Part shown: positions 994 to 61,650 of the stretch, piece by piece
Position numbering within the stretch: position 1 is the stretch's first letter
Layout: each line of letters opens with the position of its first letter
Source of the DNA: a cyanobacterium endosymbiont of Rhopalodia gibberula
GTDB lineage: Bacteria; Cyanobacteriota; Cyanobacteriia; Cyanobacteriales; Microcystaceae
DNA length: 64,000 bases
Assembly (NCBI RefSeq): GCF_003574135.1
Contig: NZ_AP018341.1
Coordinates: 248,001-312,000, forward strand
Reading direction: 5' to 3'
Notes under the pieces: model-generated
Database searches by the model: none
Told to the model about the DNA's origin: nothing
The model's input: the letters and a program-made list of their open reading frames with translations, nothing else
Translations under genes and position numbers: made by a program

Positions 994-2122
994 TATTAAG
1001 TCACGATAATAGAAGTATTGAAAGAACTAAAGTAAAGTACAATAATGTGCTGCTGTAATTTTCATGACTATGAACATAGGAGTTTTGTGGATAATAATTA
1101 TGGGGATGAGTATAAGGTTTTTTTTACTTTACGATAGTAAAATTAGCATGTTTAGAAAAATGTCTATCAAATTGACGAGACTTATGCTGCTTAAAAGCGT
1201 AATTAGATTCTCGGAGTCCAGCTACTGTTCTAGCCATTAACTGTTTATTATTTTTCCGAAGGAAAATACCAAATAAATGCTAAATCTTGATAAAACTGGT
1301 TAATCCTGTTAAAGGATACACTTCTTTGTAATCTCAACACTCTGTAAGAGTATTCTACTCATTTCATTAATACATAAAGAAACTAATTAAATAATAACAC
1401 CAGTTTACAGAACTATCATAGTGGATTAGGTATTGACTTAAAATAATCAATGAACTAGCTGCATCAATTAGGATAAATCCTAATTGATAGGAAATGAGAA
1501 TTAAAATACGAAAAAAAAATTAAGTCTGTATTCAGACAGTGAGGAAATGGGGATTAAAGATGAATAAATTAGTTTCTCTATGAATAACTAATCAGAAAAA
1601 CTAACTTAATTTGTTGATAATTTATCTTTGATTTCTTTTTGTTTGAAAGTTAACGTCCAATTGTTAGTGATTATAAAGAATAAAAATACCAATCGAAAGC
1701 CAGATATTAACTAAACAACCTTGATATTAAAATAGTTTATAGATAAAAAATGTAGAAGACAATATAGTATATGACCTATCGAACTATTGATAATATAACA
1801 AAGTTAATTTAGTAAGAAATAAAACTCATATGAGTATATCTAAAAAGTGGAACTATACTCAAAAAAACTGATATAAATAATTCTTACTTTATTAAAAGAG
1901 GAAAGTAGACTGACTATTAATATTGTCAAAAAAACTGAAAGTTAAAATATATTCTTTATTTCCTTCTCTTTAAAGATTCGTTTTACATGAAATATCTAAA
2001 GAGAACTATCTTTTCCTCATGACAACCTCACCTAGTTTATATTCGTAAAAACTACAAAACCGTGTACATCACCAGGTATTATCTATAACTGAATGACAGA
2101 ACAATTCAGCTAGGATGTCAAG
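994..2122. other. Gene-poor gap with a possible small broken ORF
   Basis: No intact gene is visible in this 1.1-kb AT-rich stretch. On the minus strand 1237-1124 an ATG opens a 37-codon frame beginning MARTVAGLRESNYAFKQHKS. One base away in frame, it is followed to about 1009 by coding-like sequence rich in His, Tyr and Asn and ending in a hydrophobic segment. This suggests a small frameshifted gene that I cannot name. A perfect 12-bp inverted repeat sits at 1464-1489. Confidence 0.4.
1464..1489. repeat. Perfect inverted repeat, 12-bp arms, 2-nt spacer
   Basis: ATCAATTAGGAT at 1464-1475 is followed after AA by its exact reverse complement at 1478-1489. No gene ends nearby, so a terminator role is not needed. 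It resembles the other fold-back repeats of the window. Confidence 0.8.
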
Positions 2123-3532
2123 ATGATTAACTGGACCGATCAAAATCTAGGAAAAGATTGGGTAAAAAAATTATTTTGGGTAGGAGTCGTCATTACTCTA
2201 GTAATTTTCTTATTTAATTTCACTTTAATAGGGTTTGGGGTATACGGAGACGGGATAGGGTATTATACACCTCTACGTTCCTTGATTTTTGACGGTGATC
2301 TTCAAATTTATGATGAATATGAGTATTTATCTTATTCTAAGTCTAATTTTAGTGGGGTTGCTCGCGTAGATAAAGCTATCCCACAATATAGTAAATATAC
2401 CTTGGGTTTAGGATTGATGCTATCACCCTTTTTTGCCCTCGGACATCTTGCAACCTTAATTGCAAATACTTTGGGGTTAGAAATTGAACCGAATGGACTG
2501 ACTTGGAGTTATGAATTATTCTATTGTTTGGGCAGTATTACATTAGGCATTTTGGGATTAATTGCTTGCTATAAAGCCGCTCGATTATTTTTTAGTCAGA
2601 CCGCTTCTGTCTTAGGTGTAGCAGGAATTTGGTTTGCCTCTCCTTTGAGTTTTTACCTTACTCTAGAAGTTTCTATGTCTCATGCTGTTTCTCAATTTTT
2701 AATTTCTGTCTTTCTCTATATTTGTATTTCTACAGCTTGGGTAAAACAACGCCGTCAACAAATTTTACTAGGACTAGTTTTGGGATTAGGGACATTTGTT
2801 CGTCTTCAAAATATTTTGTTTGCTATTGTTCCTATCACTATGATTATCTGGAATATAATTAATAGAGTCATTAAAGCTAACCAAATTAGTAGAAATTTTC
2901 CCTGGAAAGGGATGATTAAATTCCCAGATATTACTTCATTAGTTGTCATAGGATTGGTAACATGTTTAATGCAGCTTCCCCAAATGTTTATCTATCAATG
3001 GCAGTATAGTAGTTTTTTTAAAATCCCTTATCTAGAAGAGGGGGGAGCAGAAGGATATGAGTCCAGTTTTAACTGGATTAAACCCCAAATCAGTAATGTT
3101 TTATTTTCGGGACATCGCGGGTTATTTTTTTGGCATCCTGTATTATTGTTAAGTATCATTGGCTTGATTTTAGTTTATAAAAAATTACCAATATTAGTAA
3201 CAAGTTTTTTACTAGCTTTTGGATTACAAGTTTATTTAGTTTCTTCTTGGTGGTGTTGGTGGCAAGGCTCAAGTTTTGGAGGAAGAATGTTTATAAATTG
3301 TAGTTTAATTTTTGTTTGGGGATTAGCAGCTTTTTGGGATAATTTATCCTATAAGAGATCACGACTAATTGGAGTAGGGGTGACTTTATTTTTAATCGGA
3401 TGGAATGTCTTATTAATTTTACAATATGAATCAGGGATGATTCCTTCAGAAGACGCTGTTACCATTGGAGAAGTTTTAGGTAATCAATTGTTTGCTATTC
3501 CTCATTTTATAAATCATGTTTTTAATCGCTAG
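2123..3532 (+). CDS. Polytopic membrane protein, possible GT-C glycosyltransferase
   Basis: The 469-residue product is very hydrophobic, with about ten predicted membrane spans separated by short loops. The first loop after the N-terminal span carries an acidic, aromatic stretch (GVYGDGIGYYTPLR, then DGDLQIYDEYEY). That is where GT-C glycosyltransferases (polyprenyl-phosphate sugar donors) put their catalytic acidic residues, and the overall shape fits that class. I see no motif that fixes the donor or acceptor. The ATG at 2123 begins a hydrophilic N-terminus directly before the first span. It is followed by a short palindrome and then tyrS on the same strand, probably a separate unit. It could equally be an uncharacterised membrane protein of another family. 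Confidence 0.6.
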   Translation: MINWTDQNLGKDWVKKLFWVGVVITLVIFLFNFTLIGFGVYGDGIGYYTPLRSLIFDGDLQIYDEYEYLSYSKSNFSGVARVDKAIPQYSKYTLGLGLMLSPFFALGHLATLIANTLGLEIEPNGLTWSYELFYCLGSITLGILGLIACYKAARLFFSQTASVLGVAGIWFASPLSFYLTLEVSMSHAVSQFLISVFLYICISTAWVKQRRQQILLGLVLGLGTFVRLQNILFAIVPITMIIWNIINRVIKANQISRNFPWKGMIKFPDITSLVVIGLVTCLMQLPQMFIYQWQYSSFFKIPYLEEGGAEGYESSFNWIKPQISNVLFSGHRGLFFWHPVLLLSIIGLILVYKKLPILVTSFLLAFGLQVYLVSSWWCWWQGSSFGGRMFINCSLIFVWGLAAFWDNLSYKRSRLIGVGVTLFLIGWNVLLILQYESGMIPSEDAVTIGEVLGNQLFAIPHFINHVFNR

Positions 3533-3546
3533 TCGTTAATTAACGA
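3533..3546 (+). terminator. Short palindrome followed by T-run after the membrane-protein gene
   Basis: TCGTTAATTAACGA directly follows the stop codon and runs into TTTT. The 7-bp stem has no loop in the strict palindrome, so it is a weak candidate for a rho-independent terminator. Confidence 0.35.
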
Positions 3547-3670
3547 TTTTCTAACTTAAAAATATTCGATTATTTACTTTAAATTGTTAATTATAAAGGT
3601 AATTTTTAACCCTAGTGAATTAATGATCAGTTATCATATAGGGTGAAGTTTTAGTAACTTTTAATTGCAG

Positions 3671-4894
3671 ATGTCTCCAGTTATTCCTTCTGAAAGCTTA
3701 GCTTGGTTGTATCGAGGAACTCATGAAATCTTCCCCCATCAACCCAATTCAGATAACTTTGAAGAAAACCTTGAAAATTATCTAAGAAAATGCAATCATC
3801 CCCTCAGGGTCAAGTTAGGAATTGACCCCACAGATTCGAACATTCACCTAGGACATAGTATTCCTTTTCGAAAGTTAAGAGCGTTTCAGGATGCAGGCCA
3901 TACTGCCGTAGTCATCATAGGAGATTTCACTGCACAAATTGGTGACCCGACAGGAAGATCAGAAGTTAGAAAACAATTAACGCCCGAACAGGTTCAGGAA
4001 AATGCGAAAAACTATTTAGAACAATTGTCTCCTATCCTTGATTTCGAGACTCCAGGACGATTAGAGATTCGCTATAATTCTGAATGGTTAAAAGAATTAA
4101 ATTTAGATAAAGTTCAAGAATTATTAGCCACAATGACCGTTGGACAAATGTTAGCTAAAGAAGGATTTGCAGAAAGATTTAAACAAGAAAATCCTATTTT
4201 TCTTCATGAATTTCTGTACCCCTTAATGCAGGGTTATGATTCAGTGATGATAGATGCAGATATAGAATTGGGGGGGACGGATCAAAAATTCAATATTGCT
4301 GTAGGAAGAGACTTACAAAGACACTTTGGAAAAACTCCTCAGTTTGGTTTATTATTACCTATCTTGATTGGGACAGATGGCTATCGGAAAATGTCTAAAT
4401 CCCTCAATAATTATGTTGGGTTAAAAGAAAATGCATTGTCGATGTATTCAAAGTTAGAAAAGACTCCAGATACTTTGATTAGAAGTTATTTTGAGTTATT
4501 AACTAAATTACCCTTAGATGATTTATCGGAAAATCCGAGAGACTGTCAAAAACAATTAGGGATTGAAATTGTTTCTCAATTCCATGGAAGAGAAGCTGCT
4601 TTAACTGCAAAAAAAACCGCTGAAGAGTTAGTAAAAAAAAGGAGTGGAACCTCGAGAGATATAGTAGCCGAATATGACCTCTCTGGAATAGAATTTCCTG
4701 CCAAACTATTTTATATTTTAAATGCCAGTGGATTATGTAGCAGTAGTGGAGAAGGAAGACGACAACTTCAAGGGGGCGCAGTGCGTTTAGATGGTGAGCG
4801 TGTTACTGATGTTAACTTAAGTTTTGAAACTGTAAAAGAACTCCAAGGAAAAGTATTACAAGTGGGGAAGAAAAAATTCGTTAGGTTAGTTTGA
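3671..4894 (+). CDS. tyrS: Tyrosyl-tRNA synthetase
   Basis: This class I synthetase charges tRNA-Tyr in the cytoplasm. The HIGH-type signature appears as HLGHS near residue 57 and the KMSKS loop as [10 protein letters not shown] near 239. In between lie the tyrosine-pocket motifs ([25 protein letters not shown]). The C-terminal 60 residues form an S4-like RNA-binding domain ([17 protein letters not shown]). At 407 residues it is full length. I start at the ATG at 3671 rather than the in-frame TTG two codons upstream, since [13 protein letters not shown] is a plausible N-terminus. No operon partner: the next gene downstream is convergent. It looks fully functional. Confidence 0.96.
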
Positions 4895-6511: not shown

Positions 6512-6551
6512 GAGAATAATGACGGATAGAATAAAGATTTTTAGGTAGTTT

Positions 6552-7562: not shown

Positions 7563-7732
7563 TCTTAATTGCACTGTTAACGATTATGGCTTATCTTTTA
7601 TCATAGTAATTATCGACAACTCGAAGGCATGCCTACATTCTTAAATAGAAAATCTATCCCTATCATTTAAATGCCTTAATTGTCAAAGATAAAAGGTATA
7701 CAAACCAAAGAAGATTACTTTTTGGTTAGAAG

Positions 7733-7762: not shown

Positions 7763-7802
7763 TTAGCGATCTATCACCCTGTTTTTTATCTCGGTCTCGA
7801 CG

Positions 7803-8001: not shown

Positions 8002-9054
8002 AGTTGTTTATGTCTGTGACTAATGTACTTGTTCAAAATTATAGACTCCATAATACTTCTATTAGGTTAAGTTATGGAAGACCATGGAGTAACAAGTATC
8101 GGACTTAGAATGTCTTAAATAGCTCAAGACAGGTAGTTTAAAGTTCATCACTTTTACGGAAATTATCCGACAGCCAGGACGATTAATTACTCTTCGATCA
8201 AATTAGACCCTTAAAATTTTTAACAGTGGGATTTAGAATCGGCAATCACTTTATTAAGTGTATTTTCGTCTGTTATTACTTACTATTACATTATTTGCCT
8301 CGATAACAATTGTTATCAAGACGATTAGGAAGTTATGGCTTTTGGGTTAACTTGAAGACTGGTTATTGTAGAAATGTCTGTAAATTTAATTGATAACTCA
8401 GTCTAATTAAGTTTGTTAGCTGTCAAGAGTATTCTTTTTTTAAGATCACTTATTTTTACCTTAATTTAGCTTTTTTTTATTTATTAATTACACTTTTAAC
8501 TAAATTTTTAGCACTAATTAAATTAAAAATTATGAGCATTTTATAATTTCTATAGCCAAGAAATAAAACAGTTTAAAATTTCTGATAAATTAACTGAACT
8601 ATGTTAATAGAGTATAACGAAATCCTGGTATTTTTACTCTAATGAAGATTGATTGTCCCTACTTATATAGAAAAAAACAGTGATTATTTTTATAAAAATA
8701 ATCACTGTTTTTTTCTATATTTTCTCATAAGTTTATTCAATTTTTAATGACTCTAAATTTAGATTCCCTTTAATTTAAATATGATATCTTTACTTTTTTT
8801 CTTGTCCTGGAAAAAATTTTGGGGTTACAAGTTAAATCCTACAGTTCTTGCTCTTCTAATTATGTTAGCTAAACTTTCAGATAAGCTAATATCTAAAAAT
8901 TGCTTTTTTTGAGTATATTTCTATTTTAGCCTTATTTAAGCTTATCTAGTTAATAGTTAAAGAACTAATTTTTTCAGGTATTCGCCGTACACAAATGAGG
9001 TGCACTCATCAATTTCTCCTAAATACACGAAAAATATTGTTAACTCAGCAAGAT
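8002..9054. other. 1-kb gap with large palindrome
   Basis: No intact gene found. It holds a 16-bp palindrome GATAACAATTGTTATC at 8302-8317 and the 56-bp perfect palindrome at 8665-8720. Weak coding-like runs around 8220-8360 shift frame repeatedly and were not identifiable. Confidence 0.5.
8665..8720. repeat. Perfect 56-bp palindrome (28-bp arms, no spacer)
   Basis: The arms 8665-8692 and 8693-8720 are exact reverse complements; the left arm contains AACAGTGATTATTTTTA. It lies far from any gene end (petN starts at 8001 and the DUF4168 gene ends at 9055, both minus strand), so it is not an obvious terminator. A perfect palindrome of this size is normally unstable in bacteria that have SbcCD nuclease. 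Confidence 0.9.
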
Positions 9055-12157: not shown

Positions 12158-12986
12158 TGTATGATTTCCTTAGACATATAAATCTGTGGCTATCTGTAAA
12201 TTTTAGATAGTCCTTTTGTCCTCTATTCATTGGTAATGTAAAGAGTTCTATCAATTTTAACAACTCTTGGTTCAAAAAAAAATATATGTAGGAATGTCAA
12301 AAAAAATTTATCTTTTTTTAGCTTTATCTGAATGAATAAATCCTCTCTTACGTAAATAACTACCCCTGTTATAAATCAAATAAATTATTTATCATAACTT
12401 AGTTAAATATATGTTACCTAGATTGCATTAGTACCATACTAGAATAGTTTCATACTAAATTCATTCAAGCTAATTTAATGAATATTTTATATTTTAATAT
12501 GAGACAATGTTAGACTAATTAAACTTAATTAATATCTGTAATCCACTTATTATATAAATTTATGGTTTAGCCGTCAATTTACTTTTTCTGAAAAAGATTC
12601 TTGATTGTCTACACGAAATCAAGCATTGAGTTTAATACCTATTAAAGGTATTCTTATCGAAATAATCTCAAGTTTCTCTTAGTTTCTACAGTAACATTTT
12701 GACTAAATATTAAAAAGTATAGATTAATCTTCTATCATTTAATTAATAATATGAAATTACTTTTTTTATAAAAAAATTTATTAATGGATATATAGAAAAT
12801 TTAAGAATCTTTTAAGCTCCAATTCTAAAAAATAACTTTATTTTTTAGAATTGGAGCTTAAAAGACCTTGGTTGACAGTAATAAATATATTTCTTATCAA
12901 ACTTAAAAGTTTTGCATAACTAATAGAATTTAATTATTCTACTACCTTTTAAATAAAAGGGTAGTACTATCTATCTGAGAAAAGGA
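12158..12986. other. AT-rich gap with large inverted repeat
   Basis: No coding sequence recognised. The one structured element is the 28-bp-arm inverted repeat at 12808-12865, about 120 bases beyond the end of the GH116 gene. Confidence 0.5.
12808..12865. repeat. Perfect inverted repeat, 28-bp arms, 2-nt spacer
   Basis: Arms 12808-12835 and 12838-12865 are exact complements around CT; the outer part reads TCTTTTAAGCTCCAATTCTA. It is downstream of the minus-strand GH116 gene and could end transcription. Its length far exceeds a normal terminator stem and matches the other fold-back repeats of the window. Confidence 0.9.
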
Positions 12987-15395
12987 TTATAAAGAACTAA
13001 AATTAGTTAATACTCCATAAATTCCCCAAATAGCCATTGCCCGTAGATAATGACATACACGAAAAGTTCCAACAGCCGTTATCGCTTCAGGAGTACGAAA
13101 TTGTAAGCCATTTTCATATATTTGTTTAATCACTACTTCAGTTAACTTCAACGCCTCGTCTCTGCGTCCCATTTGTACGAGAAATGCCGCCAAACCAAAG
13201 TTAATTCCTATCCAAACTTCTTGAGGATGGGTCGAATTAGGATCTTCGGGAATTCCATCAGGCTTCATACCATTTGCTGCCCCATATTTCCCTTCTTGAA
13301 ACTTCAAAAAACAAGCATCATAAATTTTGTTTAAGGTTGACTGGATATATTGCTCTTCAACTATATCAGGCAACCCTAATAAACGGGCATAAAATTGACC
13401 ACACAATTGATCTGCCATCACCACATTAGAACCACTTTTACTATCGAGTTGATAGTATTCTCCATTCCATAAAGTCTTGTGATAAATCAACCGAGATTGT
13501 TTTAACCAGTGATTGTAACTTTTTATATGATCACTGACTAGTTTTAGTTCGAATTCTAAATTGATTGGAGGATTGTTTAGGATAATTTCGCCGATTTTAA
13601 TAGCTGCTTCCAGGGCTGCTATCCATAATCCGCCACAATAGGCACTTATTCCTTGTAATTGCCAATCATCAAAAGTTTGATCAGGTGCACCGGAATTTTC
13701 GGGTATACCATCATTATCTAAATCAAAGGTTTTCAAATAAGTTAAAGTTTCTGCAATCGCCGGCCAACATTTTCCTAAAAACTCTTTATCTTTACCTGGT
13801 GTTAATAAGTAATCTCGATACACTTGCAGAACAAAATCACTGCCTAAATCTTTCCATAAATTACAATCTTGATAGCTAGTATAATTAGTTTTTTCCCAGG
13901 GATGTTCATTGGGGGCGCCTAAGTCATGAGGGGTTGCCCCTTTGGCTTTTCTAATTGCTTTTACTTGGTTATATCCAATAGTTCTAATGGTTTCATCATA
14001 GGTTGAAATTGCTCTAGCAAATGCTTCTAAAACTGACTTTTCTATTCTTGGCCAAAGCATCATTAACCCAAAGGAACCATATAGTCGAACATCTAGACTT
14101 TCATACCAACGATAGTCTAGACATTCGAGCACGCCAAATTGTCCAATAGGATCATTTTCTGAGGCGGCTGTCCATAAAGTTCCTCCATCAGTGAGTAAAT
14201 ACAATTCATTCAATAAAGCCATTTTAAACCAGTCAGGTAAATCGTCTCTTTCAATGATAGAAGACTGCCATTCTTCTATCCTTTTATGCCAAACACCAAA
14301 ATTTTTTAAAGCTGTTTTAACTATTGCCCAACCGTTCTTACCATTACGATTAAAAAAGTCAGTGTAGCGACGATAATATTCTACTCCTTGAGCAAATTCT
14401 GTGACAGGAAAATCCCAGGCTAAAACGAAGGGAATTTTCTTAGTCTTCCCAGGACGAATAGTAAACCGAATGGTCATGGCTGCAGCAAGTTGTTCTCCAG
14501 GTTCGGCTGGAGTTTCATCTTCGGTATTTGGTAACGATCCATTTATAGCGAAATTATCCCAAACTTCTGAACCATCTCCTTTGGGATTCCATTTTCCCAG
14601 ATAAAAAACTTCGATACTGGGATTAGTCATACTAGCAATGCAAATTTGTCCTTCCCCTTCTTGTACTTGAGTCTGGAGTTGAATGTGGTTGAGAATAAAC
14701 CCAACACCAAAGTTATCTCGCACCCATTGATTAAAATTTCCCGTACTCTGTCCCCATCGGGGTTGATATTTATATTCAGGGCTACCATCGTCTCTAACGG
14801 TAATTTCAGGAGATTTAATGGCATTGGTAAACCATCCCACAATATTTTGCCACGTTACCATAATACTGAGAGTAATAGGCTTATTCGTGGGATTGTGGGC
14901 AGTCCATTCAAAGATAGCTAAGGGATAGCTTGTTTCCTGATAATTATTTGGAATAATTGGGGAAAATTGCTCACAGACTAGTTTACTTTGAAATACACCT
15001 TGGTATTCATACCAACTGCGAGGATAAAGAGCGTGATAAGTTCCTTTTTCCGTAGGATACCAATTCCAAGTTGATAAAGTTCCATTTTCAGGCGGTTGGG
15101 TACACAGAGCATAAGCTTGAGAATTTTCCCCTTCAGATTGTTCAAAGACGCTAAACTGACAGGCAGGAATACTGCCGAATGTATGTTCACCCCCATCAAA
15201 ATGCCAAAGGTTGAAGTCACCGTGGGGAGAACGTCCAATGCAACCAGCTCCGAACCCACCGAGAGGCATCCCATGATTTGGTCCATCGTCTAAATTACTA
15301 GCTCTTCGTGCCGTATAGGGATTATCCCATCCTTTACCGATGGGACGTTTCCAAGTGCAAAGAGGAATCGTGGGAAAAGAAAATGGTGTTTTCAT
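12987..15395 (-). CDS. GH116 family beta-glucosidase / glucosylceramidase-like
   Basis: The 802-residue product matches the GBA2-type family GH116. The N-terminal beta-sandwich contains GMPLGGFGAGCIGRSPHGDF. The (alpha/alpha)6 catalytic domain contains LLNELYLLTDGGTLW near residue 400, holding the Glu of the nucleophile position, and GAPDQTFDDWQLQG near 570, holding the Asp of the acid/base position, followed by SAYCGGLWIAALEAA. The C-terminal NGMKPDGIPEDPNSTHPQEVW is also family-typical. No signal peptide is seen, so it is probably cytoplasmic and acts on beta-glucosides or glucosylated lipids; the substrate is not deducible. The long frame is uninterrupted in a region where neighbours decay, which suggests selection. 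Confidence 0.85.
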   Translation of the reverse strand: MKTPFSFPTIPLCTWKRPIGKGWDNPYTARRASNLDDGPNHGMPLGGFGAGCIGRSPHGDFNLWHFDGGEHTFGSIPACQFSVFEQSEGENSQAYALCTQPPENGTLSTWNWYPTEKGTYHALYPRSWYEYQGVFQSKLVCEQFSPIIPNNYQETSYPLAIFEWTAHNPTNKPITLSIMVTWQNIVGWFTNAIKSPEITVRDDGSPEYKYQPRWGQSTGNFNQWVRDNFGVGFILNHIQLQTQVQEGEGQICIASMTNPSIEVFYLGKWNPKGDGSEVWDNFAINGSLPNTEDETPAEPGEQLAAAMTIRFTIRPGKTKKIPFVLAWDFPVTEFAQGVEYYRRYTDFFNRNGKNGWAIVKTALKNFGVWHKRIEEWQSSIIERDDLPDWFKMALLNELYLLTDGGTLWTAASENDPIGQFGVLECLDYRWYESLDVRLYGSFGLMMLWPRIEKSVLEAFARAISTYDETIRTIGYNQVKAIRKAKGATPHDLGAPNEHPWEKTNYTSYQDCNLWKDLGSDFVLQVYRDYLLTPGKDKEFLGKCWPAIAETLTYLKTFDLDNDGIPENSGAPDQTFDDWQLQGISAYCGGLWIAALEAAIKIGEIILNNPPINLEFELKLVSDHIKSYNHWLKQSRLIYHKTLWNGEYYQLDSKSGSNVVMADQLCGQFYARLLGLPDIVEEQYIQSTLNKIYDACFLKFQEGKYGAANGMKPDGIPEDPNSTHPQEVWIGINFGLAAFLVQMGRRDEALKLTEVVIKQIYENGLQFRTPEAITAVGTFRVCHYLRAMAIWGIYGVLTNFSSL

Positions 15396-16753: not shown

Positions 16754-17107
16754 ATGGATTCAACAGTCGAAGAAAAAAAGCTCGTTTCTGTTCAACCCAC
16801 AGGCTTTTGTAATCAACAAAAAACAGCCCTAATCTCCATTGGTATTACCCCGACGGGCTATATTTCGATTGGCATCGCTCCCATGGGTATTATTGCTATT
16901 GGGATTGTCCCCATGGGGGTAATTTCATTTGGGGCAGTGGCTATGGGAACCGTTGCCGCTGGAGCAGTTTCTATGGGAATAGCAGCTTTTGGAGTCGAAA
17001 CGATGTCCCTCTTAAATTTAGGACGGTCACAATTGGGGTCTGTGGAAATTAAGTTCAAACCTCACAATCACGATAATTACAAAAACCATAATCATTCGAG
17101 TCCTTAA
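16754..17107 (+). CDS. Glycine/methionine-rich short-repeat protein with His-rich tail
   Basis: The 117-residue product is built from about eight six-to-eight-residue units of the form (I/A)-G-I/A-x-P/A-M-G-x-I (for example SIGIAPMGIIAIGIVPMG). Its regular glycine spacing suggests a beta-helix-like or membrane-hugging fold. The N-terminus is polar (MDSTVEEKKLVSVQPTGF) and the C-terminus is His/Asn-rich (HNHDNYKNHNHSSP), perhaps a metal-binding tail. I know similar repeat proteins in cyanobacteria only as hypothetical. The repeat region is less AT-rich than the flanks, arguing for real coding. It precedes the coiled-coil gene by 146 bases on the same strand. Function unknown. Confidence 0.65.
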   Translation: MDSTVEEKKLVSVQPTGFCNQQKTALISIGITPTGYISIGIAPMGIIAIGIVPMGVISFGAVAMGTVAAGAVSMGIAAFGVETMSLLNLGRSQLGSVEIKFKPHNHDNYKNHNHSSP

Positions 17108-19293: not shown

Positions 19294-19808
19294 AACCGAT
19301 TAAACAAATTCTCCAAAGTCCCCAGACGAATTATGATTGAGACTGGTAAGTTTTAGACCTAAATCATGGGTGAAGCTAAACATTGTAAGAATGGCATTAG
19401 AAGAAAATATAGTCAGGATACAATTATTTTTTCTCAACTTCCTATTCCTATTATTAAACGTCGAACTGACGTTTTCTATCAATGAACAATTCAGGGGGCT
19501 TGGATCGACGTTGGCATTGTAATCAGCATTTTATAAAAAACATTGTATCGGTCCTGCCATAGGTTGCTGGTAAATTCAATACAGTCAGCCTATAAATTAG
19601 TGAGAAACTGTCTTAAACAAAATAGTAATCAGCCTCTACATGCTTCATGAGTTCTAGAAAAAAACTAGAAGGTCTGATCCCAATTCCCCACAATGACGTT
19701 CCAGTTTTTTATTGCTCGTGTCTGAGTTTTTACTTCTTGTGATCTGCTTCGCTATGTGTCTACAAGTAGTTTGAATTACTTAGTGGATTATCATGATAAT
19801 GCGGCAAC
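19294..19808. other. Gap of about 500 bases, no gene recognised
   Basis: Short frames occur on both strands (for example 19337-19522 plus and 19300-19482 minus) but overlap each other and match nothing I know. A 14-bp palindrome ATTATCATGATAAT lies near 19787. Confidence 0.4.
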
Positions 19809-21804: not shown

Positions 21805-21875
21805 AATTAGCCTTGTCCAGGAGAAACCCAAAACAAGGCTAATTCTATTTTGTTGGAAATATTTTTCCAACAAAA
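21805..21875 (+). terminator. Tandem hairpins after the DUF2062 gene
   Basis: The first hairpin has 12-bp arms AATTAGCCTTGT (21805-21816) and ACAAGGCTAATT (21833-21844) with a 16-nt loop. The second has 12-bp arms TTTTGTTGGAAA (21848-21859) and TTTCCAACAAAA (21864-21875) with a 4-nt loop. They lie between the gene ending at 21717 and the CBS gene starting at 21975, so termination is plausible. The second, with a short spacer, also resembles the fold-back repeats. Confidence 0.55.
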
Positions 21876-27814: not shown

Positions 27815-28340
27815 AATCGATTACTCATTTTTTAACGTAGCCAGACTAACAGTTTAGGGAAAAAAGCAGCTCACCCCAAGTGTTTTAACAGTGAATTGTA
27901 AACTTCTTCACTTAATAACAAGGTTGAATAAGGTTGATGTTTAGTGTTAGAGATTTCAGGAAAAAACTTCACCTAGCCATTCCCTAAAAAATTAAATTTT
28001 TTTAGGGAACATTATTGTCTATTTTATTCGTCTTTACCTAGTGTTTTTCTGAATAAGAACATCTTGGATAACAGATTTATTTTGAGTCTAAAATGATACA
28101 TAGTGGACTTAAAAAGTTTTACTACGATATTATTACTGGAAAAATACGGGACACAACATAAATTGTCACAAAAATCTATAGTCTTAAACTAAACTTTTGA
28201 CATGAGCCTTTATAATGAGAATATCTTGGTCTATTGTCTCGTAATAAGTTCAACTGGTATTCTAGAGTATCCTCTTTTAGACAATTAAGGACAAGAACGT
28301 AAAACCAAGTGTCTTTTCGATTGATTTTAGGTGGTGTGAG
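27815..28340. other. Divergent region between argB and a small plus-strand ORF
   Basis: It contains an inverted repeat at 27980-28009. A TATAAT with an upstream TTGACA at 28197-28217 is too closely spaced (8 nt) for a standard promoter. No coding signal is visible. Confidence 0.4.
27980..28009. repeat. Inverted repeat, 12-bp arms, 6-nt spacer
   Basis: TTCCCTAAAAAA (27980-27991) pairs with TTTTTTAGGGAA (27998-28009). It looks like a bidirectional terminator stem but lies in a divergent intergenic region where no gene ends, so it may be a leftover of a lost gene or a fold-back repeat. Confidence 0.7.
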
Positions 28341-38680: not shown

Positions 38681-39640
38681 CTTAATAATATCCTCTATAA
38701 GTCTTGTAATATATGAATTATTATGTTTGTAAATTATGTGCTCACTGGTATCTATATTTAGATTTTAAGCTAATCATAAACCGTAATTATATAGATAGTC
38801 ATATTCAGAAGATTTATATGTAAATTACATTTTACCAATTTGTTTATATCCGTAATTTTAAATGTTTAAACTAGTTTAATGAATGATATTTCAAAGTTTA
38901 AAAAAATTACCATTGCCCATCATATAGAATTTAGGGATAATGACAGTTTGTATTTATTGTGGATCAACTAATAAAAAATTTTATCACAACAATAGATTGA
39001 CTATTAGAAGTTTTTATTAGTCATAAAAAGCTATATATTTTTTATTAAAAATAAATAATGAATACTTAAATATTCAGATTTAAAATATCTCAAAATGTTT
39101 TAAATAGTGACATGAATAATGTAGCTTAAAAAATAGAAATAACGCTCAAAAATTTAGGTAAATAATTATGAAATAATTGAACCATAAAAAGGTTTTTAAT
39201 TCATATAATTGTTATTATTAAATAATAACAATTTTAATATTTAAATTTAGTTAATTTTTAATATATAACTATTAATTTTTTTAGAAAAAATATAGCTATC
39301 TACTTTTTAAAAAATTTGTTTTATCGTGTCAGTTTTTTACTTTTTATTTGGACGACTACTTTATATCTTTCAAGAAATTATATCTAAGCTCACGGGTAAA
39401 TACCTAACTTCTAATATTAGATTTTTATAAAGAAGCTAATTTTAATAAATAGAAAAGATTGGTTTTTTAATTTGTTGGTAAAAAGAATCAATAAAATTAT
39501 ACTAAATAATATTTAAATAAGTTACCTAGTTGTAGAAAATTTGCATGTCAATTCTCTACAACTGGTCAAAAGTTTTAACCAGTTTTTTTAGATACAATTT
39601 TTTTAAAATTGATTACAACGACTAATCAATATCATGTCAC
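38681..39640. other. Gap of about 950 bases with an orphan terminator
   Basis: No gene recognised. Near its end are a 9-bp inverted repeat (AGTTGTAGA ... TCTACAACT, about 39528-39563) and then a terminator-like hairpin with T-run at 39560-39589. This may mark the end of a transcript I cannot see, or simply the end of the CysZ-like transcript. Confidence 0.45.
39560..39589 (+). terminator. Rho-independent terminator candidate
   Basis: AACTGGT (39560-39566) and ACCAGTT (39578-39584) form a 7-bp stem with an 11-nt loop, followed by a T-run to 39589. The form is classic, but no open frame ends close upstream on the plus strand; the nearest ends 880 bases earlier. Confidence 0.65.
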
Positions 39641-40361: not shown

Positions 40362-40416
40362 CCATGATGCTCCTATTTCCCGTCGATATAGTCGACGGGA
40401 AATAGGAGCATCATGG
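40362..40416 (+). repeat. Fold-back inverted repeat inside glgB (25-bp arms, 5-nt spacer)
   Basis: Arms 40362-40386 and 40392-40416 are perfect complements around TATAG. The left arm is ancestral glgB sequence (it encodes HDAPISRR, matching the YAPTSRF motif). The right arm is its inverted copy and stands where about 24 codons should lie before the next homologous motif (DxIPRHFSKD). Confidence 0.92.
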
Positions 40417-40703: not shown

Positions 40704-40751
40704 AATATCAAGACCACGTTTTATTAATTAATAAAACGTGGTCTTGATATT
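40704..40751 (+). repeat. Fold-back palindrome inside glgB (24-bp arms, no spacer)
   Basis: The 48-base segment is a perfect palindrome. Its left outer part encodes QYQDH of the ancestral protein. Directly after the right arm the protein resumes with LGILFIAEKSTAW, the next residues in GlgB, so the palindrome is an insertion with little or no loss of flanking sequence. Confidence 0.92.
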
Positions 40752-44930: not shown

Positions 44931-44964
44931 ATACTAAAAACGTACAGGGTATTGTTTTTAGTAT
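44931..44964. repeat. Inverted repeat, 11-bp arms, 12-nt spacer
   Basis: ATACTAAAAAC (44931-44941) pairs perfectly with GTTTTTAGTAT (44954-44964). It sits inside a decayed region only 32 bases before another inverted repeat. Confidence 0.7.
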
Positions 44965-44995: not shown

Positions 44996-45053
44996 CAAAC
45001 AACATAGATTAACAATATAATCGATAAGGTAGATTAAGAATCTATGTTGTTTG
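44996..45053. repeat. Inverted repeat, 15-bp arms, 28-nt spacer
   Basis: CAAACAACATAGATT (44996-45010) pairs perfectly with AATCTATGTTGTTTG (45039-45053). The longer spacer differs from the tight fold-backs elsewhere. Confidence 0.75.
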
Positions 45054-46030: not shown

Positions 46031-47482
<1,452 letters not shown>

Positions 47483-50616: not shown

Positions 50617-51696
50617 TCAATTAACTGTTCCTCGTAGGGCTTCTGCATCGATTGGTTTTAGAAAATAAATTCGTAATAAATCTCCGATAATTCCGACAAT
50701 CAACGGCAATTTACTTAGGTTTTTTATGATTTTAGGGGTGTCACTCTCTCCGATTTCTTTCATCTTTAAATTACGCTTAGAACATCGTTGTAAACGAGAA
50801 TAAAATTCAGGATTATCTACATCAAGAATACTGGGAAATGCTCGTGCCGATGTTTGATTTGTTTTACGGATTACTTCTTGATCAAATTCTGTAGCATTTA
50901 ACCCTAAAGACTCGTAAAAACTAGCTCTTTCATGAACAGTTAAAGTGTGGGTAGCAAAGACAGATAAGAGAAAGAAGCGGCTCCATAATCTAGATTGCCA
51001 AGTGTTCCAGAGTTTAGGCTGAGAACGTAATAAGGCAGTGAAAATATCTCCATGACGATTTTCGTCTTGACACCAGTTTTCAAATTTTTTGAAAATAGGA
51101 TAGAATTGTTTCTCGGGGTGTTTTTCTAAATGATGAAAAATAATGATGTAACGCCAATACCCGATTTTTTCAGAAAGATAGACGGCATAAATTACCCATT
51201 CCAATGGGAAGAATGTATAGGTACGGTTTTTGGTAATTTTTCCCAGATCTAAGGATAAGTTAAAGTCCGCCATTGCCTTATTTAAAAACCCTGCATGACG
51301 AGCTTCATCCCGCGCCATCAAGTAGAACATTTCTGACAGAATCGGGTTGCGGCCTTTTAGTTTTCGGGAAAGTTCTTTGAATAAAAGAAACCCAGAAAAT
51401 TCTGAAATACAAGACCGTTCAAGATATTCAACAAATCCTTCTTTCACAGTTTTATCTAAATTATCCCAAGAGCCTGTATTGAATTCTTCATCACGGATAA
51501 AATGGTGGCGATTGTAGTCTTTTCTCATCTCTGTCAACATCGCGTTTAATTCTATTTCTTGTTCTGTCAGAGACAGCTTAGCGGCAGCTTCAAAATCTGT
51601 CGTGTAAAAACGTGGGGTGAGAAGAGTTTCTCGGATATGGGCTTTAGTTGTTGGTTTGACTTGTGTAGAAGTGACTTCATCTAGTGTGTTGACCAT
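50617..51696 (-). CDS. acsF: Mg-protoporphyrin IX monomethyl ester (oxidative) cyclase
   Basis: The 359-residue di-iron enzyme builds the isocyclic ring of chlorophyll under oxic conditions. It begins MVNTLDEVTSTQVKP followed by LLTPRFYTTDFEA, typical of cyanobacterial AcsF. Iron ligands are visible in ISEFSGFLLFKEL near 108, RDEARHAGF near 143 and CQDENRHGD near 210. The reading frame is complete, so chlorophyll synthesis may be retained or only recently relaxed. The start codon lies inside a 19-bp perfect hairpin (51693-51736) that should hinder translation unless the RNA is opened. No alternative ATG exists within about 50 codons. Confidence 0.93.
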   Translation of the reverse strand: MVNTLDEVTSTQVKPTTKAHIRETLLTPRFYTTDFEAAAKLSLTEQEIELNAMLTEMRKDYNRHHFIRDEEFNTGSWDNLDKTVKEGFVEYLERSCISEFSGFLLFKELSRKLKGRNPILSEMFYLMARDEARHAGFLNKAMADFNLSLDLGKITKNRTYTFFPLEWVIYAVYLSEKIGYWRYIIIFHHLEKHPEKQFYPIFKKFENWCQDENRHGDIFTALLRSQPKLWNTWQSRLWSRFFLLSVFATHTLTVHERASFYESLGLNATEFDQEVIRKTNQTSARAFPSILDVDNPEFYSRLQRCSKRNLKMKEIGESDTPKIIKNLSKLPLIVGIIGDLLRIYFLKPIDAEALRGTVN

Positions 51697-51736
51697 ATAT
51701 TTTTATATAACTATTCGGTTATATAAAAATATATGG
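51693..51736 (-). repeat. Hairpin covering the acsF start codon (19-bp arms, 6-nt spacer)
   Basis: CCATATATTTTTATATAAC (51693-51711) and its exact complement (51718-51736) enclose TATTCG. In the mRNA the AUG at 51696-51694 is the end of the 3' arm, so both the start codon and the region where a ribosome-binding site would lie are paired. It may be a regulatory RNA element or a fold-back mutation. Confidence 0.9.
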
Positions 51737-55729: not shown

Positions 55730-56145
55730 AAGTATTAGCTGCAATGTTGTCTTAATTCAAGTAGGGACTAGGAATGAAATATCTGAAGGTTTATATCTCT
55801 TCTAGACTGAGTATAGTAAGTTAGTAGTTAATAACTCCCGATAGTTTCGCTCTGTCTACGTTTTATGACTCTGAAAGAATAATTTTTATGACAATTAAGC
55901 TTTCAGATTGCAAAGGGTTAGCAAGATAGAACTATCGGCTTTTGTTTATTATGATTCCGTTATATCTAGTATAAAAAAACTGAATTTATTTAACTAGATT
56001 ACTGTTTCTTTATTAGAGATCTATTACTTAAATCTAAGTTATTTTTATTACCTAGCTTTTTTCTCAAAAATTACCTAAATATCACTCAAATATCGATATA
56101 CAGCTGTATTTTAGAGATTTTCTAATAACTAAAATAACCTAATTT

Positions 56146-57250
56146 ATGAAAAACTATGATTGGATTGTTGTTGGTTGTGGAATTGCCTGGTCAGCATTAA
56201 GTTATGAATCAGTCAAAAAAGACTTAGAAGTTTGACTTATAGACAAGGAAATTAGTCAACTAAGTACTATCCACTATAGTTATAAGAGCTTAGTTTATTG
56301 ATCGGTTCCCGATCAATAAACACGTTAACTTTGTTATGAAGAAATTGAAACCAGTCGTAATTTATCAGAATAATTAGGTACAAATATACGTTTTAAAAAC
56401 TTGATTGATTGTTAGCAATTCGGGCAGAAGATAATTTCAAAGCGGTGACTCAAAATCATAATGAATTTGCGATTTGTCCTCAACGTTTAAATTTTCAAAA
56501 AGTGTGCGAATTGAAACTCCTTTTAAATTCAAGTTCTATTTCTGGGGAACTGAATCTACCTCATAGATATATTCATCTTCAGAAAACCAATCAAGTATAT
56601 TTCCAAGCTTTTGTTCAACTCGAAGAAGGGAGCCAACTTGAGTTGGTTGAACAACTATCAACACCAAAAAATTATACCGTAGGAGTGATCACAGCTACTA
56701 GAACATATCGTAGTCAACACACTATCGTTTGTGCAAATGGACTGAGCCGTTATTTACTCAATAAAACTGGTGTAAAAGTTGATGTCTATTGCACTCATAT
56801 ACAGTTAATTATGACTCTTTGTGTATATATTAAATTGCGAACCTTCGTAATGCCAGCTATCTTAAAAAGACTAACAGCAAATTCGGAAATTAATAATTAT
56901 CAGTGGTATCGTTTCAGGTCAGATATTATTACTGAGGAATACAATTTCTTAAAATTAATTTTTATTTAGGATAAATTAGCTAGATTTGCATCAACCCGAC
57001 GGTTAAAATTGATCAGATTTTAAGTTAAAAAACCTTTAAAAAAATTGGTCAAATTTTATCTGCTTTAGAGAATCTGCCAGAAATTTTATAAAATTGCTTA
57101 GTTACATTTATGCCTTATTCTAGTGCTAGAGCAGGGAAATTTGAAGTGTTTACCGAACTTTATTTATTTTCTTGATTTAGATACTTTAGTCTTTACTCTT
57201 CCTTGAGCTAGATAGTTTGCGAACTAAATAACAGAAGACAGTGAACAAAT
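56146..57250 (+). pseudogene. FAD-dependent oxidoreductase pseudogene (DadA-like)
   Basis: The plus strand starts MKNYDWIVVGCGIAWSALSY, a degraded GxGxxG FAD-binding fold, then meets in-frame stops near 56235 and 56300. The open 186-codon frame 56409-56969 is its middle part (HTIVCANGLSRYLLNKTGVK, then LRTFVMPAILKRLT). A third segment near 57060-57250 (ILSALENLPEIL, ARAGKFEVFTELYLF) matches the C-terminal part of glycine/D-amino-acid-oxidase-like enzymes. Stops and frame shifts make it non-functional. A 13-bp palindrome overlaps the second stop. The substrate of the ancestral enzyme is unknown. Confidence 0.85.
56293..56321 (+). repeat. Inverted repeat with 13-bp arms inside the FAD-oxidoreductase pseudogene
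   Basis: GTTTATTGATCGG (56293-56305) and CCGATCAATAAAC (56309-56321) surround TTC. The protein frame runs through it without length change. The left arm contains the in-frame TGA where a Trp (TGG) would be expected, and the right arm contains a TAA. Confidence 0.85.
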
Positions 57251-58998
57251 ACCAATTATTAATTAATTAGCTTTTATCTATTGAAAGTTAGTATCATTAA
57301 TATTATCTATTAGCTAACCTTTTCCCTCCTCATTAATTATCTTGGGTTTACTGTTCAACGTGCTCAAAGCTCAATTGTATCTAGAGTCAAGACAGATCAG
57401 AAAAGAATTAAATAACTTAGAATATTAATTAGCTGGCTTATATTAATAAATAAAGCAATTTATGAAGAAAAAACAGATAACGTTAAATCAATATTAATTG
57501 TATCTAATTGGTATTCTAATCTATGAGTTGAAAAGGAATAGTTCTTATTAGATCACAGAAGTTTTTAAAGGCATTGAAGAAAAGTTATACAATCAATCAA
57601 AATAAATATAATAATCAAAATAGAGGTAAAACTAGCTTAATTAAAGTGAATAAATAAACAGCTTGATTTTCAATATTTTATTAACTGTTCTTTAGCTATT
57701 GGAGCAATAGTAGCCATAATTAGTAGCGTAGCTAATTTATTTTTTCCTAAATTTAGATACATTATATAGTGATAATTCATACTAAGGTTATCAATACCTC
57801 ATAGTATCTATGGTTAAGATATAGCGACGGATAAAAAGCTAAATCTGCATATTCCCTCAGCTAATTTTATGAGCACCTCTAGCTAAATAACTAGGACTTC
57901 AATAAGTTTTTAAAAAATTGTTTTTTATATTATCTAAAAGCTAAAGTTAATACTTCATTTTTTTAAACTCTAGATATTTAGAATAATAAGTATATTTTTT
58001 GATCTCGTTTAAATTACCTTAAATTAAGGTTAAAATTTTATTTAGCTCAACTCTTAAAGGTTTTCTTTTTGAGAAGAAAAACCTTTAGCAACTATTATCT
58101 AGTGTCTAGTTTTTATATAAAAAGATTATAGTGCAAGACCTAAATTTTTGTCTAATTAATTATTTTTTGAGATTTTCTTTAATTATGAGTGTTTATCTAA
58201 TTTGAGAAACAAGTAGCATGCTCAATAACAACAATAATAAAAAAAGGAATAAATAAGGAATTAGTCGAGAATATTCCTTAAAATTAAGTACGTATATTAA
58301 CAAAACAAAATAAAGATAATCCGATAAGACTAGACAATACTTTACTCGTTAAATAGTCTGTATTTCTTGGCAATTACAGTTATAGTGTTAACTTTACGTA
58401 TAACAAATTTAAGGTAATTTAGCTAAAGCAGCACCCGCTCTTCTTCTTAGTAAAGAAGTTTCCCTATTAGAATTCTATTTTAGAAAAAATAACTTGTCTT
58501 TTCCTAATAACAATATAGACTTATCTTTATTTTGTTGTACAGTAAAGTCACTCATTAGTTTAATTCCTATATTCCTTAGCAAAAATAGAATTAACATTAT
58601 TGTTTCTAAATTTGATTACTATATTTGCTGTAAAACAGTTAATAGCAGTTATTTATATACTACAAAAAATACTTAAAATAGTTACTTTTTTATACTTATT
58701 ACGGTTAGTTGTTATAAAATAACATAACATTAATTTTCTTTTTATAAACTTAAATATTTCTTATACTACCACCAATAACACTATTATTTTCTCTTATTTT
58801 AATAACTTGTACTGTAACATAATACATTTATGTTTATTTTTTCTAAATTTACTGTAACACTTTTGTTTTTTTCTCTCAAAGTCCATAATGCCAATATGAA
58901 TTTCAAGTTTTTTTATTATAATTACTTATCTTTTTAAGATAAAATTATATTTTTTATTATTAATGATTTATCTTTCATTTTTTAGCAATATCTTGAGT
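57251..58998. other. 1.75-kb gap, probably decayed genes
   Basis: Fragments such as LLFNVLKAQLYLESRQIRKE near 57370, YFINCSLAIGAIVAIISSVA near 57685 and LAKAAPALLLSKEVSLLEFY near 58420 look coding-like but are separated by stops. None could be named. A bulged inverted repeat (AAAGGTTTT ... AAAACCTTT) is at about 58057-58087. The final 400 bases before cysS are plain AT-rich DNA. Confidence 0.45.
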
Positions 58999-60441
58999 CT
59001 AACTACGATACCAATTTGTTACACCTCCAGGTTGATCAACTAAAATAATACCTTGATCTTTTAACTGATCTCGAATACGGTCACCTTCAACATAATTTTG
59101 ACTTTTACGGGCCCTTTTTCGTTGTTCTATCAAATCTTCAATTTCTCCATCACCTAACTTATTACTTAATTTTTTTTCGCTCCCATGTTTATCAACTTCT
59201 AGTCCTAAAACTTGTGCTAATTCCAATAAAGTTTTCCATTGTTTTTCTAAGACTTTAGGTGAAGTGTCTGTATTTCCTTGGTGTACTAAAATATTGCCTG
59301 CCCTACGTAATTCTTTAGCAATTTGAAATAATATCGCTAAACCACCTGCGAAGTTAAAGTCATCATCAACTACTTCTTGAAATCTTTTTTTTAAAGTAGA
59401 GGAAGACTTAGAAACAGAAAAACCTAATTGAGATCCGTATTGATACCCAAAAAGTAACCCTTCTTGAAGAGTGTGCCAACTATTGGTTGCTGCTTTCAAT
59501 GCATCATCAGTGAAGTCTACCGGCTTACGATAATGTGTCTGAAGAATAAACAGTCGCATTGCCATTGGATGAATTTTATTTAATAAATCCCGAATAGTGA
59601 TAAAATTTCCTAAGGATTTAGACATTTTTTCGCCTTCTACTTTTACCATACCATTGTGCATCCAATAACGAGCTAAAGGTTTTCCTGTCGCTGCTTCTGA
59701 CTGGGCAATTTCATTTTCATGATGAGGAAAAATTAAGTCACTTCCCCCGACATGAAGATCGATAGTTTCCCCTAGGTGTTCTAAAACCATCGCAGAGCAT
59801 TCAATGTGCCACCCTGGGCGACCTTTTCCCCACGGAGATTCCCAAGACGGTTCTTCTGGTTTTGCACTTTTCCAAACGGCAAAATCACAGGGATCTTTTT
59901 TTTTGGCTGTTTCAAGTTCTTCTAAATCTATTCTTCCACTAGCTCCTACCTGTAAATCCTCTAATTTTCGACCTGAGAGTTTCCCATAGTCTTGAAAGTG
60001 CCGTACTGAATAATAAACATCTCCACCAGATTCATAAACATAACCTTTTCGTTCGAGTTGAGATACTAAGTTTTGAATACCATTGAGAGTATGAGTCGCA
60101 CGAGGGTAAACATCTGCCTGTTTAATATGAAGACGTTCCATGTCCTCAAAATAAGCTTCAATAAACTGTTTAGAAATTAATTCCATTGATAACCCCTCTT
60201 TACGTGCCCGACTAATAATTTTATCGTCAATATCTGTAAAATTTTGAATGTAAGTTACGTCATAACCACACCATTGTAAGTAATGCCGCACTACATCCCA
60301 CACCATACAGGTTCTAGCATGACCCAAATGGCAATAGTCATAAACAGTAATACCACAACAATACATACGGACTTTATTATCCTCAATGGTTTCAAAAGGT
60401 TCTTTTTTACGGGTTAGAGTGTTATAAATGGTTAGTGTCAT
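58999..60441 (-). CDS. cysS: Cysteinyl-tRNA synthetase
   Basis: This class I synthetase charges tRNA-Cys. It begins MTLTIYNTLTRKKEPFETIE, with YDYCHLGHARTCMVWD near residue 34 (HIGH motif and a zinc-ligand Cys earlier at 28). Further motifs are WHIECSAM near 210, LDLHVGGSDLIFPHHENEIAQ-like sequence near 230 and GEKMSKSLGNF near 273 (KMSKS). The C-terminal anticodon-binding part follows to residue 480. All catalytic and zinc motifs are present. The gene is isolated between long gaps. Confidence 0.96.
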   Translation of the reverse strand: MTLTIYNTLTRKKEPFETIEDNKVRMYCCGITVYDYCHLGHARTCMVWDVVRHYLQWCGYDVTYIQNFTDIDDKIISRARKEGLSMELISKQFIEAYFEDMERLHIKQADVYPRATHTLNGIQNLVSQLERKGYVYESGGDVYYSVRHFQDYGKLSGRKLEDLQVGASGRIDLEELETAKKKDPCDFAVWKSAKPEEPSWESPWGKGRPGWHIECSAMVLEHLGETIDLHVGGSDLIFPHHENEIAQSEAATGKPLARYWMHNGMVKVEGEKMSKSLGNFITIRDLLNKIHPMAMRLFILQTHYRKPVDFTDDALKAATNSWHTLQEGLLFGYQYGSQLGFSVSKSSSTLKKRFQEVVDDDFNFAGGLAILFQIAKELRRAGNILVHQGNTDTSPKVLEKQWKTLLELAQVLGLEVDKHGSEKKLSNKLGDGEIEDLIEQRKRARKSQNYVEGDRIRDQLKDQGIILVDQPGGVTNWYRS

Positions 60442-61650
60442 TGGTGGGTTTATACTTGACAGTTAATAGTTACAGTTAAGGATGTCTAACTATTTATAAT
60501 GCTATCATCGGACTGAGGATCTTTAAGAAGGTTAAGAGAATAATCCATTTCATAGTTATCGTAACAAAGTTTTAACAATCGATGTTTTGAAAATCGATGA
60601 AATAAAGAACATGTACTTAATTTTGTGACTTAGCGAAAGTTTAACTTATAAGTTCTAGAGATAGAATAATATAACTCTATAAAGCAACAAAAATGATCAA
60701 TTTCTATGAAACTAACTTTATAGTGACAACTTGATAAGCTGATACCTTTAATTTAAAATAAAAAATCTTGACTTAAATAACTTAAAACAAAGGTAATTAT
60801 TTAGTGAGATATTCTTATGAATTAAGAATGGCTATAATGTAAGTTATTTTAACTAGGTTAAAAATTAGTATAAAATTTACGTTAACTGACATATCTATTG
60901 ATTTTAAGTTTTACTAGAGCTTCTCAGACTAAAAAATTTTCTGATTCTCTAAGTAAATTCGGTGTTAGTTAAAAGTTCATTTACTTTTTTAAAAGTTTCT
61001 AACATAGTGTTATTTTTTAAAATAAAACTATTTATTTCTAAAATAAAGTTCTACGTAAAAATATTAGACTGTGTTACTACTCAAAAAAGAAGTCGTAACA
61101 CAGTCTAATGAGTACTATTAGTTATACTGATCATATTGCAAGTATAATCTATAATAGAAAGTTATTAAAACAGTACAAAGAAGACACGAAAAATTAAAGT
61201 CTATCGTTTATTTGGAGTTATTAGCAGCCTTTTATATTTACAGTTTAAGATAGTAGAAAATAAGAAATTATACTATATTTACTAATAAATAAAGACTTAG
61301 TACATTGTACAATCGAGAATGTATAAAAATTTAATCTTAAAAAGATAGCTCAATTATAAGAGAACAATATAAGTCAATAAAGTATGATTCATATACATCA
61401 AAAATTAGGAACATTTTTGAAAAAAATAATTTGACTAGACAAAGTCCTAAACAAGAAAGATTTTACTTCAATATTTTTGTATAGTGCTATAGCTATGGCT
61501 CTTTATATACTTATGATTGATAATCAAATTTTATCTTTACATTTTTTATATTCAAAATAATATCTTTATAACATCTTTTATAGACTAAATTATCTTTAAA
61601 ATTAATTAATAATCTAGTCAATTTAGGGTGAGCAATACCCACCCACAAGT
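60442..61650. other. 1.2-kb AT-rich gap
   Basis: No coding sequence recognised. It contains the 15-bp-arm inverted repeat at 61063-61109. Frames are short and Lys/Ile/Asn-rich. Confidence 0.5.
61063..61109. repeat. Inverted repeat, 15-bp arms, 17-nt spacer
   Basis: ATTAGACTGTGTTAC (61063-61077) pairs perfectly with GTAACACAGTCTAAT (61095-61109). After one mismatch three more bases pair inside the loop. It lies more than 500 bases from the nearest gene end. Confidence 0.8.

Follow-up and report, generated by a model that had tools for sequence, protein, structure and literature searches.

A 64-kb stretch of DNA (the window; bases 248001–312000 of a single-contig genome of 3.02 Mb that is 99.89% complete) contains many perfect inverted repeats, called hairpins here, that are largely unrelated to one another in sequence. 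The source of this DNA, whose genome is designated G000, is most likely a spheroid body, the nitrogen-fixing endosymbiont found in rhopalodiacean diatoms. We conclude, with a probability of roughly 0.8, that the hairpins are products of short-range template switching (quasipalindrome mutation) that accumulate in the non-functional DNA of this reduced cyanobacterial genome. Their density, their single-copy nature, their turnover, the rewriting of an outer arm and the occasional inversion of a loop were all observed directly. An earlier note on this DNA had described a class of unrelated hairpins and suggested that they arose by folding back, persisted because SbcCD or another palindrome-removal function was lost or weak, and drove the death of genes. 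The lack of shared sequence and the fold-back origin held up under analysis; the loss of SbcCD and the role in gene death did not.

Density of hairpins in reduced and larger genomes

A perfect inverted repeat was counted as a hairpin if its arms measured at least 16 bp and its spacer at most 10 nt, and DNA outside open reading frames (ORFs) of at least 100 amino acids (aa) was taken to be noncoding; these definitions hold throughout unless others are given. Three reduced genomes of the same genus (G001, 3.07 Mb; G003, 2.79 Mb; G004, 2.48 Mb) and three larger ones (G002, 5.2 Mb; G005, 4.6 Mb; G006, with a chromosome of 4,679,413 bp), the latter presumably free-living, served as relatives. The 464 kb sampled from G000 held 47 hairpins (101/Mb). 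Comparable numbers came from the reduced relatives: 58 in 480 kb of G001, 44 in 380 kb of G003 and 31 in 380 kb of G004 (82–121/Mb). In contrast, no hairpin was found in 273 kb of G002 or in 220 kb of G006 (493 kb together), nor in three dinucleotide-preserving shuffles of the G000 sample. Stretches of G151, which read N, were dropped. The earlier note had named an equal density in intact relatives or in shuffled sequence as the observation that would count against it; neither was seen.

When arms of at least 12 bp were admitted, the same sample had 183 hairpins per Mb, compared with 5 per Mb in the shuffles, and the window alone had 10, where about 0.3 would be expected per 64 kb. At arms of at least 11 bp, shuffled sequence yields about one hairpin per 64 kb. 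Any single case of 11–12 bp in the window is weak evidence; the long cases are not due to chance.

Could the excess simply reflect a larger noncoding share in the reduced genomes? Per Mb of noncoding DNA, the densities in G000, G001, G003 and G004 were 224, 253, 219 and 223, respectively. Gaps of 200–1000 bp held 44 hairpins in ~196 kb of the reduced genomes and none in 67 kb of G002 and G006, where 15 were expected; gaps longer than 1 kb in the pooled free-living sets had none in 52 kb, against 12 expected. Since the contrast persists in matched gaps and per noncoding base, the larger noncoding share fails to explain it.

The comparison was broadened with a set of 80 nif loci, all of which were scanned and which together hold 14 hairpins in 1.41 Mb. 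The 34 loci picked by title at first (4 hairpins in 153 kb of noncoding DNA) missed hairpin-bearing loci of cyanobacteria such as L157 and L204. The recount took in all 45 cyanobacterial loci except Richelia, a lichen symbiont and Prochloron among them, and gave 7 hairpins in 173 kb of noncoding DNA (40/Mb). All free-living sets pooled, by our own sum, have 8 hairpins in ~316 kb of noncoding DNA (25/Mb); per noncoding base, the density in the reduced genomes is about nine times as high. Several of the nif-locus palindromes of free-living cyanobacteria (L149, L150, L167, L215, L216) are G+C-rich, similar to one another and of the GTAGAGACG or GTAGGGGCG type; they differ from the hairpins of G000.

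Further genomes were sampled as well. Richelia intracellularis HH01, a member of another order that lives as an endosymbiont in diatoms, had 5 hairpins in 64 kb (78/Mb), with 4 in 26 kb of noncoding DNA (~150/Mb). Two genomes that we take to be of UCYN-A size (G131, G132) had 2 in 29 kb of noncoding DNA, where 6.5 were expected (p = 0.04). Stretches of these two genomes (L125–L130), 120 kb in all, contained 32 stems of 16 bp with one or two mismatches; a shuffle contained 2. A+T content alone was rejected as the cause of the hairpins: the UCYN-A-sized genomes are more A+T-rich, yet have fewer long perfect ones. An assembly artefact is also unlikely, as the hairpins recur in four reduced genomes and in Richelia HH01, and as stems with increasing numbers of mismatches form a graded series (below).

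Single-copy nature and turnover

REP/REPIN elements, MITEs and similar bacterial palindromic repeats form families of similar copies. The present hairpins share with them the character of short palindromes in intergenic DNA, but they have no common consensus: a BLAST comparison across the 464 kb (E <= 1e-4) gave matches for 2 of the 47 hairpins in G000, and each of the two matched the other alone. Membership in a family of this kind was accordingly rejected. Elsewhere, in L036, two identical 40-bp palindromes (16942–16981 and 19319–19358) lie ~2.4 kb apart with their flanks inverted.

Stems of 20 bp with 0, 1, 2 and 3 mismatches numbered 25, 13, 22 and 19 in G000, compared with 0, 0, 1 and 2 in the shuffles; every mismatch class was in excess in the other reduced genomes, too. 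Such a graded series is what constant formation combined with neutral decay would yield, and the birth and decay of hairpins look to be ongoing. In an aligned 264-kb block of G000 with 37 hairpins (arms of at least 14 bp), G001 matched a single one in both arms and had a hairpin there. This is contrary to the conservation of both arms in relatives, which the earlier note had named as a second observation that would tell against it. Three further hairpins of the block face a different hairpin within the G001 interval. Aligned noncoding DNA has diverged by 20%. The hairpins are, in short, lineage-specific, single-copy events, as template switching would produce.

Conserved hotspots, at which hairpins would form repeatedly, were tried as an explanation and found to contribute a slight excess at most. 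When 33 mappable G000 hairpins were compared with G001, 3 had a G001 hairpin at a distance of up to 25 bp (a fraction of 0.091, where the null reached at most 0.086). The count was still 3 at up to 40 bp (null maximum 0.118) and rose to 6 at up to 80 bp (0.182; null maximum 0.128). Against G003, the null maximum was exceeded at no distance. From the standing density (224/Mb x 32 sites), we estimate that ~0.007 hairpins form per substitution, or one for every 140 substitutions; this figure assumes neutrality and ignores insertions and deletions.

Alignment evidence for the proposed template switching

How the hairpins form was examined in a profile of the aligned regions, for which 56 of 91 hairpins were usable and had good flanks. 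The flanks were as similar to the relative as control segments were (identity 0.78 vs. 0.79), and the same was true of the inner stem of the worse-matching arm (0.78 vs. 0.78). In the outer part of that arm, identity fell to 0.58, against 0.70 in controls (p = 7e-7), and in the loop it was 0.53, against 0.82 (p = 8e-8). That is, the outer arm has been rewritten as an inverted copy of the other arm, while the flanks and an inner seed have been kept.

The loops provide a second line of evidence. At 9 of 36 distinct loci, the loop was nearer to the reverse complement of its counterpart than to the counterpart itself; among control segments, 2 of 160 were (p = 4e-6). When changed loops only were considered, 9 of 20 leaned to the reverse complement, compared with 2 of 22 controls (p = 0.013). 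Strong inversions of the spacer occurred at 3 of the 36 loci and at none of the 160 controls (p = 0.006).

Clear single cases in the aligned block of G001 lie at 177164, 167880, 149063 and 173398. At 177164, the left arm and the seed (GTTAATTC/GAATTAAC) are common to G000 and G001, and the bases that follow have, in G001 alone, been rewritten as an inverted copy of the left arm. The site (177164–177214) lies close to the end of a gene for a methyltransferase (Pfam PF08241), which is coding in all four genomes; in G001, the C-terminal residues of the methyltransferase are altered, and the remaining frame is open. At 167880, an ancestral 7-bp stem has gained 11 inserted bases, and 7 of these make the inverted copy complete. 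As regards a replication-strand bias, the left arm was ancestral in 8 of the one-arm cases and the right in 9. The region profile, the loop inversions and the single aligned cases all support the fold-back or template-switch synthesis that the earlier note had proposed.

A number of results weigh against this interpretation. A plain count of hairpins with one matching arm (17/92) showed no separation from shifted controls (92/368). After filtering for good flanks, the p value of this count was 0.001 with a lenient cut-off and 0.07 and 0.77 with stricter ones, where cases are few, and the difference between the best and the worst outer arm alone gave p = 0.064. The better outer arm, too, lay under its control (0.77 vs. 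0.85), and some hairpins have therefore been altered on both sides. The mean reverse-complement identity of the loops was indistinguishable from that of controls (0.39 vs. 0.35, p = 0.94), so inversion is limited to a minority of them. A scan of the whole block for micro-inversions returned 4 hits (0 in either control), of which 1 was at a long hairpin. Finally, 60 of the 92 hairpins could not be polarised.

As to the replication intermediates, we infer that a short pre-existing inverted match would give the growing strand the chance to pair, either within itself or with the nascent strand opposite. One arm would then be copied into the other before synthesis resumed on its proper template, and the product would be a perfect hairpin, sometimes with an inverted loop; the longest arms seen measure 38 bp. 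Young hairpins would decay neutrally, through ordinary point mutation, so that formation and loss would balance at about 225 hairpins per noncoding Mb.

Coding context and the glgB remnant

Nearly all hairpins are found outside genes: 46 of the 47 in G000 lie outside ORFs of at least 100 aa, and of the 92 in aligned blocks of G000 and G001, 89 are in noncoding DNA. Where noncoding cases could be judged, 69 of 71 were noncoding in every relative judged. The orthologous places being noncoding already, the hairpins mostly arise in DNA that is already dead.

A remnant of glgB in the window, which matches the branching-enzyme model TIGR01515 (E = 5e-15; a Pfam search of the remnant gave no match), contains a hairpin at 40362–40416 with 25-bp arms and a 5-nt loop. 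The earlier note had taken one of these arms to be ancestral coding sequence and the other to be its inverted copy. Indeed, the left arm can be aligned to sequence that encodes GYQ...ISRYG in a relative, and the right arm repeats the left in inverted form. The glgB gene is broken in G003 as well, without that hairpin. This observation and the 69 of 71 sites that are noncoding in relatives argue against the hairpins as a driver of gene death. A palindrome 0.3 kb beyond (40704–40751; 24-bp arms, 0-nt loop) probably lies within the same remnant.

Other hairpins of the window

All 11 hairpins listed in the earlier note are present and perfect; the one placed at 1464 really starts one base further out. 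This inverted repeat (1463–1488; 12-bp arms, 2-nt loop) has two mismatches in G001. The palindrome at 8665–8720 (28-bp arms, 0-nt loop) faces an unrelated 13-bp hairpin at the corresponding place in G001. At 27980–28009 (12-bp arms, 6-nt loop), pairing is completed by two adjacent changes, G000 having TTCCCT where G001 and G003 have TTCTGT. Two hairpins with wider loops lie close together at 44931–44964 (11-bp arms, 12-nt loop) and 44996–45053 (15-bp arms, 28-nt loop), the latter mostly within a gap of the G001 alignment. The stem at 56293–56321 (13-bp arms, 3-nt loop) is imperfect in G001, and its loop, judging from the alignment, may be inverted relative to the relatives. The hairpin at 61063–61109 (15-bp arms, 17-nt loop) faces no hairpin in G001 or G003. 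Absent from the earlier list were hairpins at 21848–21875 (12-bp arms, 4-nt loop) and 39207–39233 (13-bp arms, 1-nt loop), as well as others at 21805, 6177, 16142 and 35395 (arm/spacer 12/16, 11/4, 11/11 and 11/2, respectively).

The remaining two bear on a different explanation, namely that the hairpins serve at the RNA level, as transcription terminators or as functional stems of another kind. The first (12808–12865; 28-bp arms, 2-nt loop) is located ~120 nt past the stop of a long ORF on the minus strand (12987–15395), and its stems are imperfect in G001 and G003. In our reading of the alignment it would be a quasipalindrome turned perfect, and it may have originated as a terminator. The second (51693–51736; 19-bp arms, 6-nt loop) is at the start codon of the minus-strand ORF 50617–51696. 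It is also present in G001, is represented by a related 12-bp stem in G004 and is absent in G003; between G000 and G001 there is a matched insertion in both arms, the arms co-vary, and the loop is reverse-complemented. This stem could be a regulatory element as well as a site of template switching. The ORF beneath it encodes 359 aa with a rubrerythrin domain and is, we presume, perhaps acsF.

A position just beyond a gene end in the first case, and co-varying arms shared with G001 in the second, speak for functional RNA. Across the class, a T-rich 8-mer adjoins 16 of 47 hairpins (34%), compared with 20.6% of random places. This excess is mild, however, and G+C-rich stems followed by a T run at gene ends, as in intrinsic terminators, are not what the hairpins look like: the mean G+C content of the arms is 24%, 38 of 46 G000 hairpins are in noncoding gaps longer than 1 kb, and 1 of 37 is kept as a hairpin in G001. 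An Rfam search of the whole window at the gathering score yielded no match at any hairpin; the only match, a glutamine riboswitch (RF01739, 55386–55462, 49 bits), is located away from them. We thus regard a functional-RNA origin of the class as very unlikely.

Repair genes and the cause of the excess

The probable formation of the hairpins by template switching does not by itself say what made them so abundant. SbcCD cleaves long palindromes in E. coli, and its loss or weakness, as suggested in the earlier note, would let them persist. The genes indicate otherwise. SbcC of G000 has an open frame of 1008 aa, the first 718 of which match TIGR00618 at 1e-100, with a Walker A motif and a CxxC hook recognised by eye; SbcD is a 424-aa ORF that matches TIGR00619. 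Open sbcD frames were found in 9 of 9 genomes, with hairpins or without; sbcC was judged in G000 only. On the evidence of these frames, we exclude a missing SbcCD as the shared cause of the excess and consider the loss or weakness of SbcCD an extremely improbable explanation. Loss of exonuclease VII was also rejected, as G006, which shows no long hairpins, lacks xseA just as the four reduced genomes do; so were losses of RecJ (open in 6 of 6 genomes tested) and MutS (open in 9 of 9). These endosymbionts reportedly retain all but three of 27 repair proteins, with RNase HII absent from all of them (PMC12903740).

RNase HII, encoded by rnhB, is the named candidate for a lost safeguard against template switching. 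In yeast, RNase H2 mutants are reported to gain quasipalindrome mutations, but this effect was seen only under high transcription (PMC3820800). The distribution of rnhB within the genus fits, in that it is absent from G000, G001, G003 and G004 and present in G002, G005 and G006. It is also absent from G131 and G132, the UCYN-A-sized genomes with an excess of near-perfect stems, which brings the reduced genomes without it to six. On the other hand, Richelia HH01 retains rnhB yet has its 5 hairpins in 64 kb. Some larger near-complete genomes lack the gene as well; three of them (G028, G052 and G158, of 3.8–5.5 Mb), sampled from the several that were found, had 1 hairpin in 40 kb of noncoding DNA, where 9 were expected (p = 0.001). 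Loss of rnhB is therefore not necessary and is probably insufficient alone, and we find it a rather unlikely cause.

A second account concerns the cause of the excess and not the formation of the hairpins: template switching would proceed at a normal rate, and selection against palindromes would be weak in a small, drifting endosymbiont population rich in dead DNA. The confinement of nearly all hairpins to dead DNA (46/47 in G000, 89/92 in the aligned blocks), the similar densities per noncoding base in the four reduced genomes (219–253/Mb) and the ~150/Mb of noncoding DNA in the unrelated, rnhB-bearing Richelia HH01 favor it. Less compatible are the long free-living gaps, which likely hold dead DNA and had none of the 12 hairpins expected, and the shortfall in the UCYN-A-sized genomes (2 against 6.5). 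We give this account a little less than an even chance. A raised rate of template switching and a weaker selection against palindromes are both possible causes of the excess.

Relation to known systems and significance

Quasipalindrome mutation is known mainly through reporters and single genes. Described in E. coli, phage T4 and yeast, it extends or perfects inverted repeats, causes changes of several bases and may invert the spacer (PMC8604942, PMC3820800); in yeast, arm homogenisation and spacer inversion are both reported (PMC8604942). The present hairpins share these features and differ in forming a genome-wide standing crop in dead endosymbiont DNA. Short-range template switches in great apes likewise create nearby perfect inverted repeats in one event; 4017 significant events are reported over six genome comparisons (PMC7954356), whereas our estimate here is ~1 long-stem event per 140 neutral substitutions, and the detection criteria differ. 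Template switching in RNA hairpins is likewise reported to create stems, make compensatory changes and invert loops in single events, but it acts in functional RNA genes (PMC8794818) and not in non-functional DNA as here.

A survey of bacterial inverted repeats states that they are frequent in endosymbionts such as Buchnera (PMC10434271). In the titles and opening abstract text of the matches listed from the open-licence literature, there was no report of such hairpin accumulation in spheroid bodies, Rhopalodia/Epithemia, Richelia, endosymbionts or pseudogenes. The string “Palindrom” was absent from the main text of four papers on spheroid bodies (PMC12903740, PMC5638926, PMC11131595, PMC2246100).

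Tentatively, fold-back switching might rank among the major modes of mutation in young endosymbiont genomes, one that has not been counted so far. Relative to point mutation, it would have become roughly ten times as frequent, in the spheroid-body lineage and in Richelia independently, via a shared change in replication or repair other than SbcCD and not through mere tolerance by drift; we hold this broader proposal to be possible but on balance unlikely.

The decay of endosymbiont genomes is usually described in terms of point mutation, deletion and insertion sequences. Here, an additional, templated process is densely recorded. By our estimate, each long perfect hairpin would last for only ~2% divergence, and the standing crop would therefore gauge the current rate of template switching. 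Hairpin counts across many genomes would thus allow one to ask which losses of repair functions make mutations of this kind more frequent in nature, and which make them rarer.

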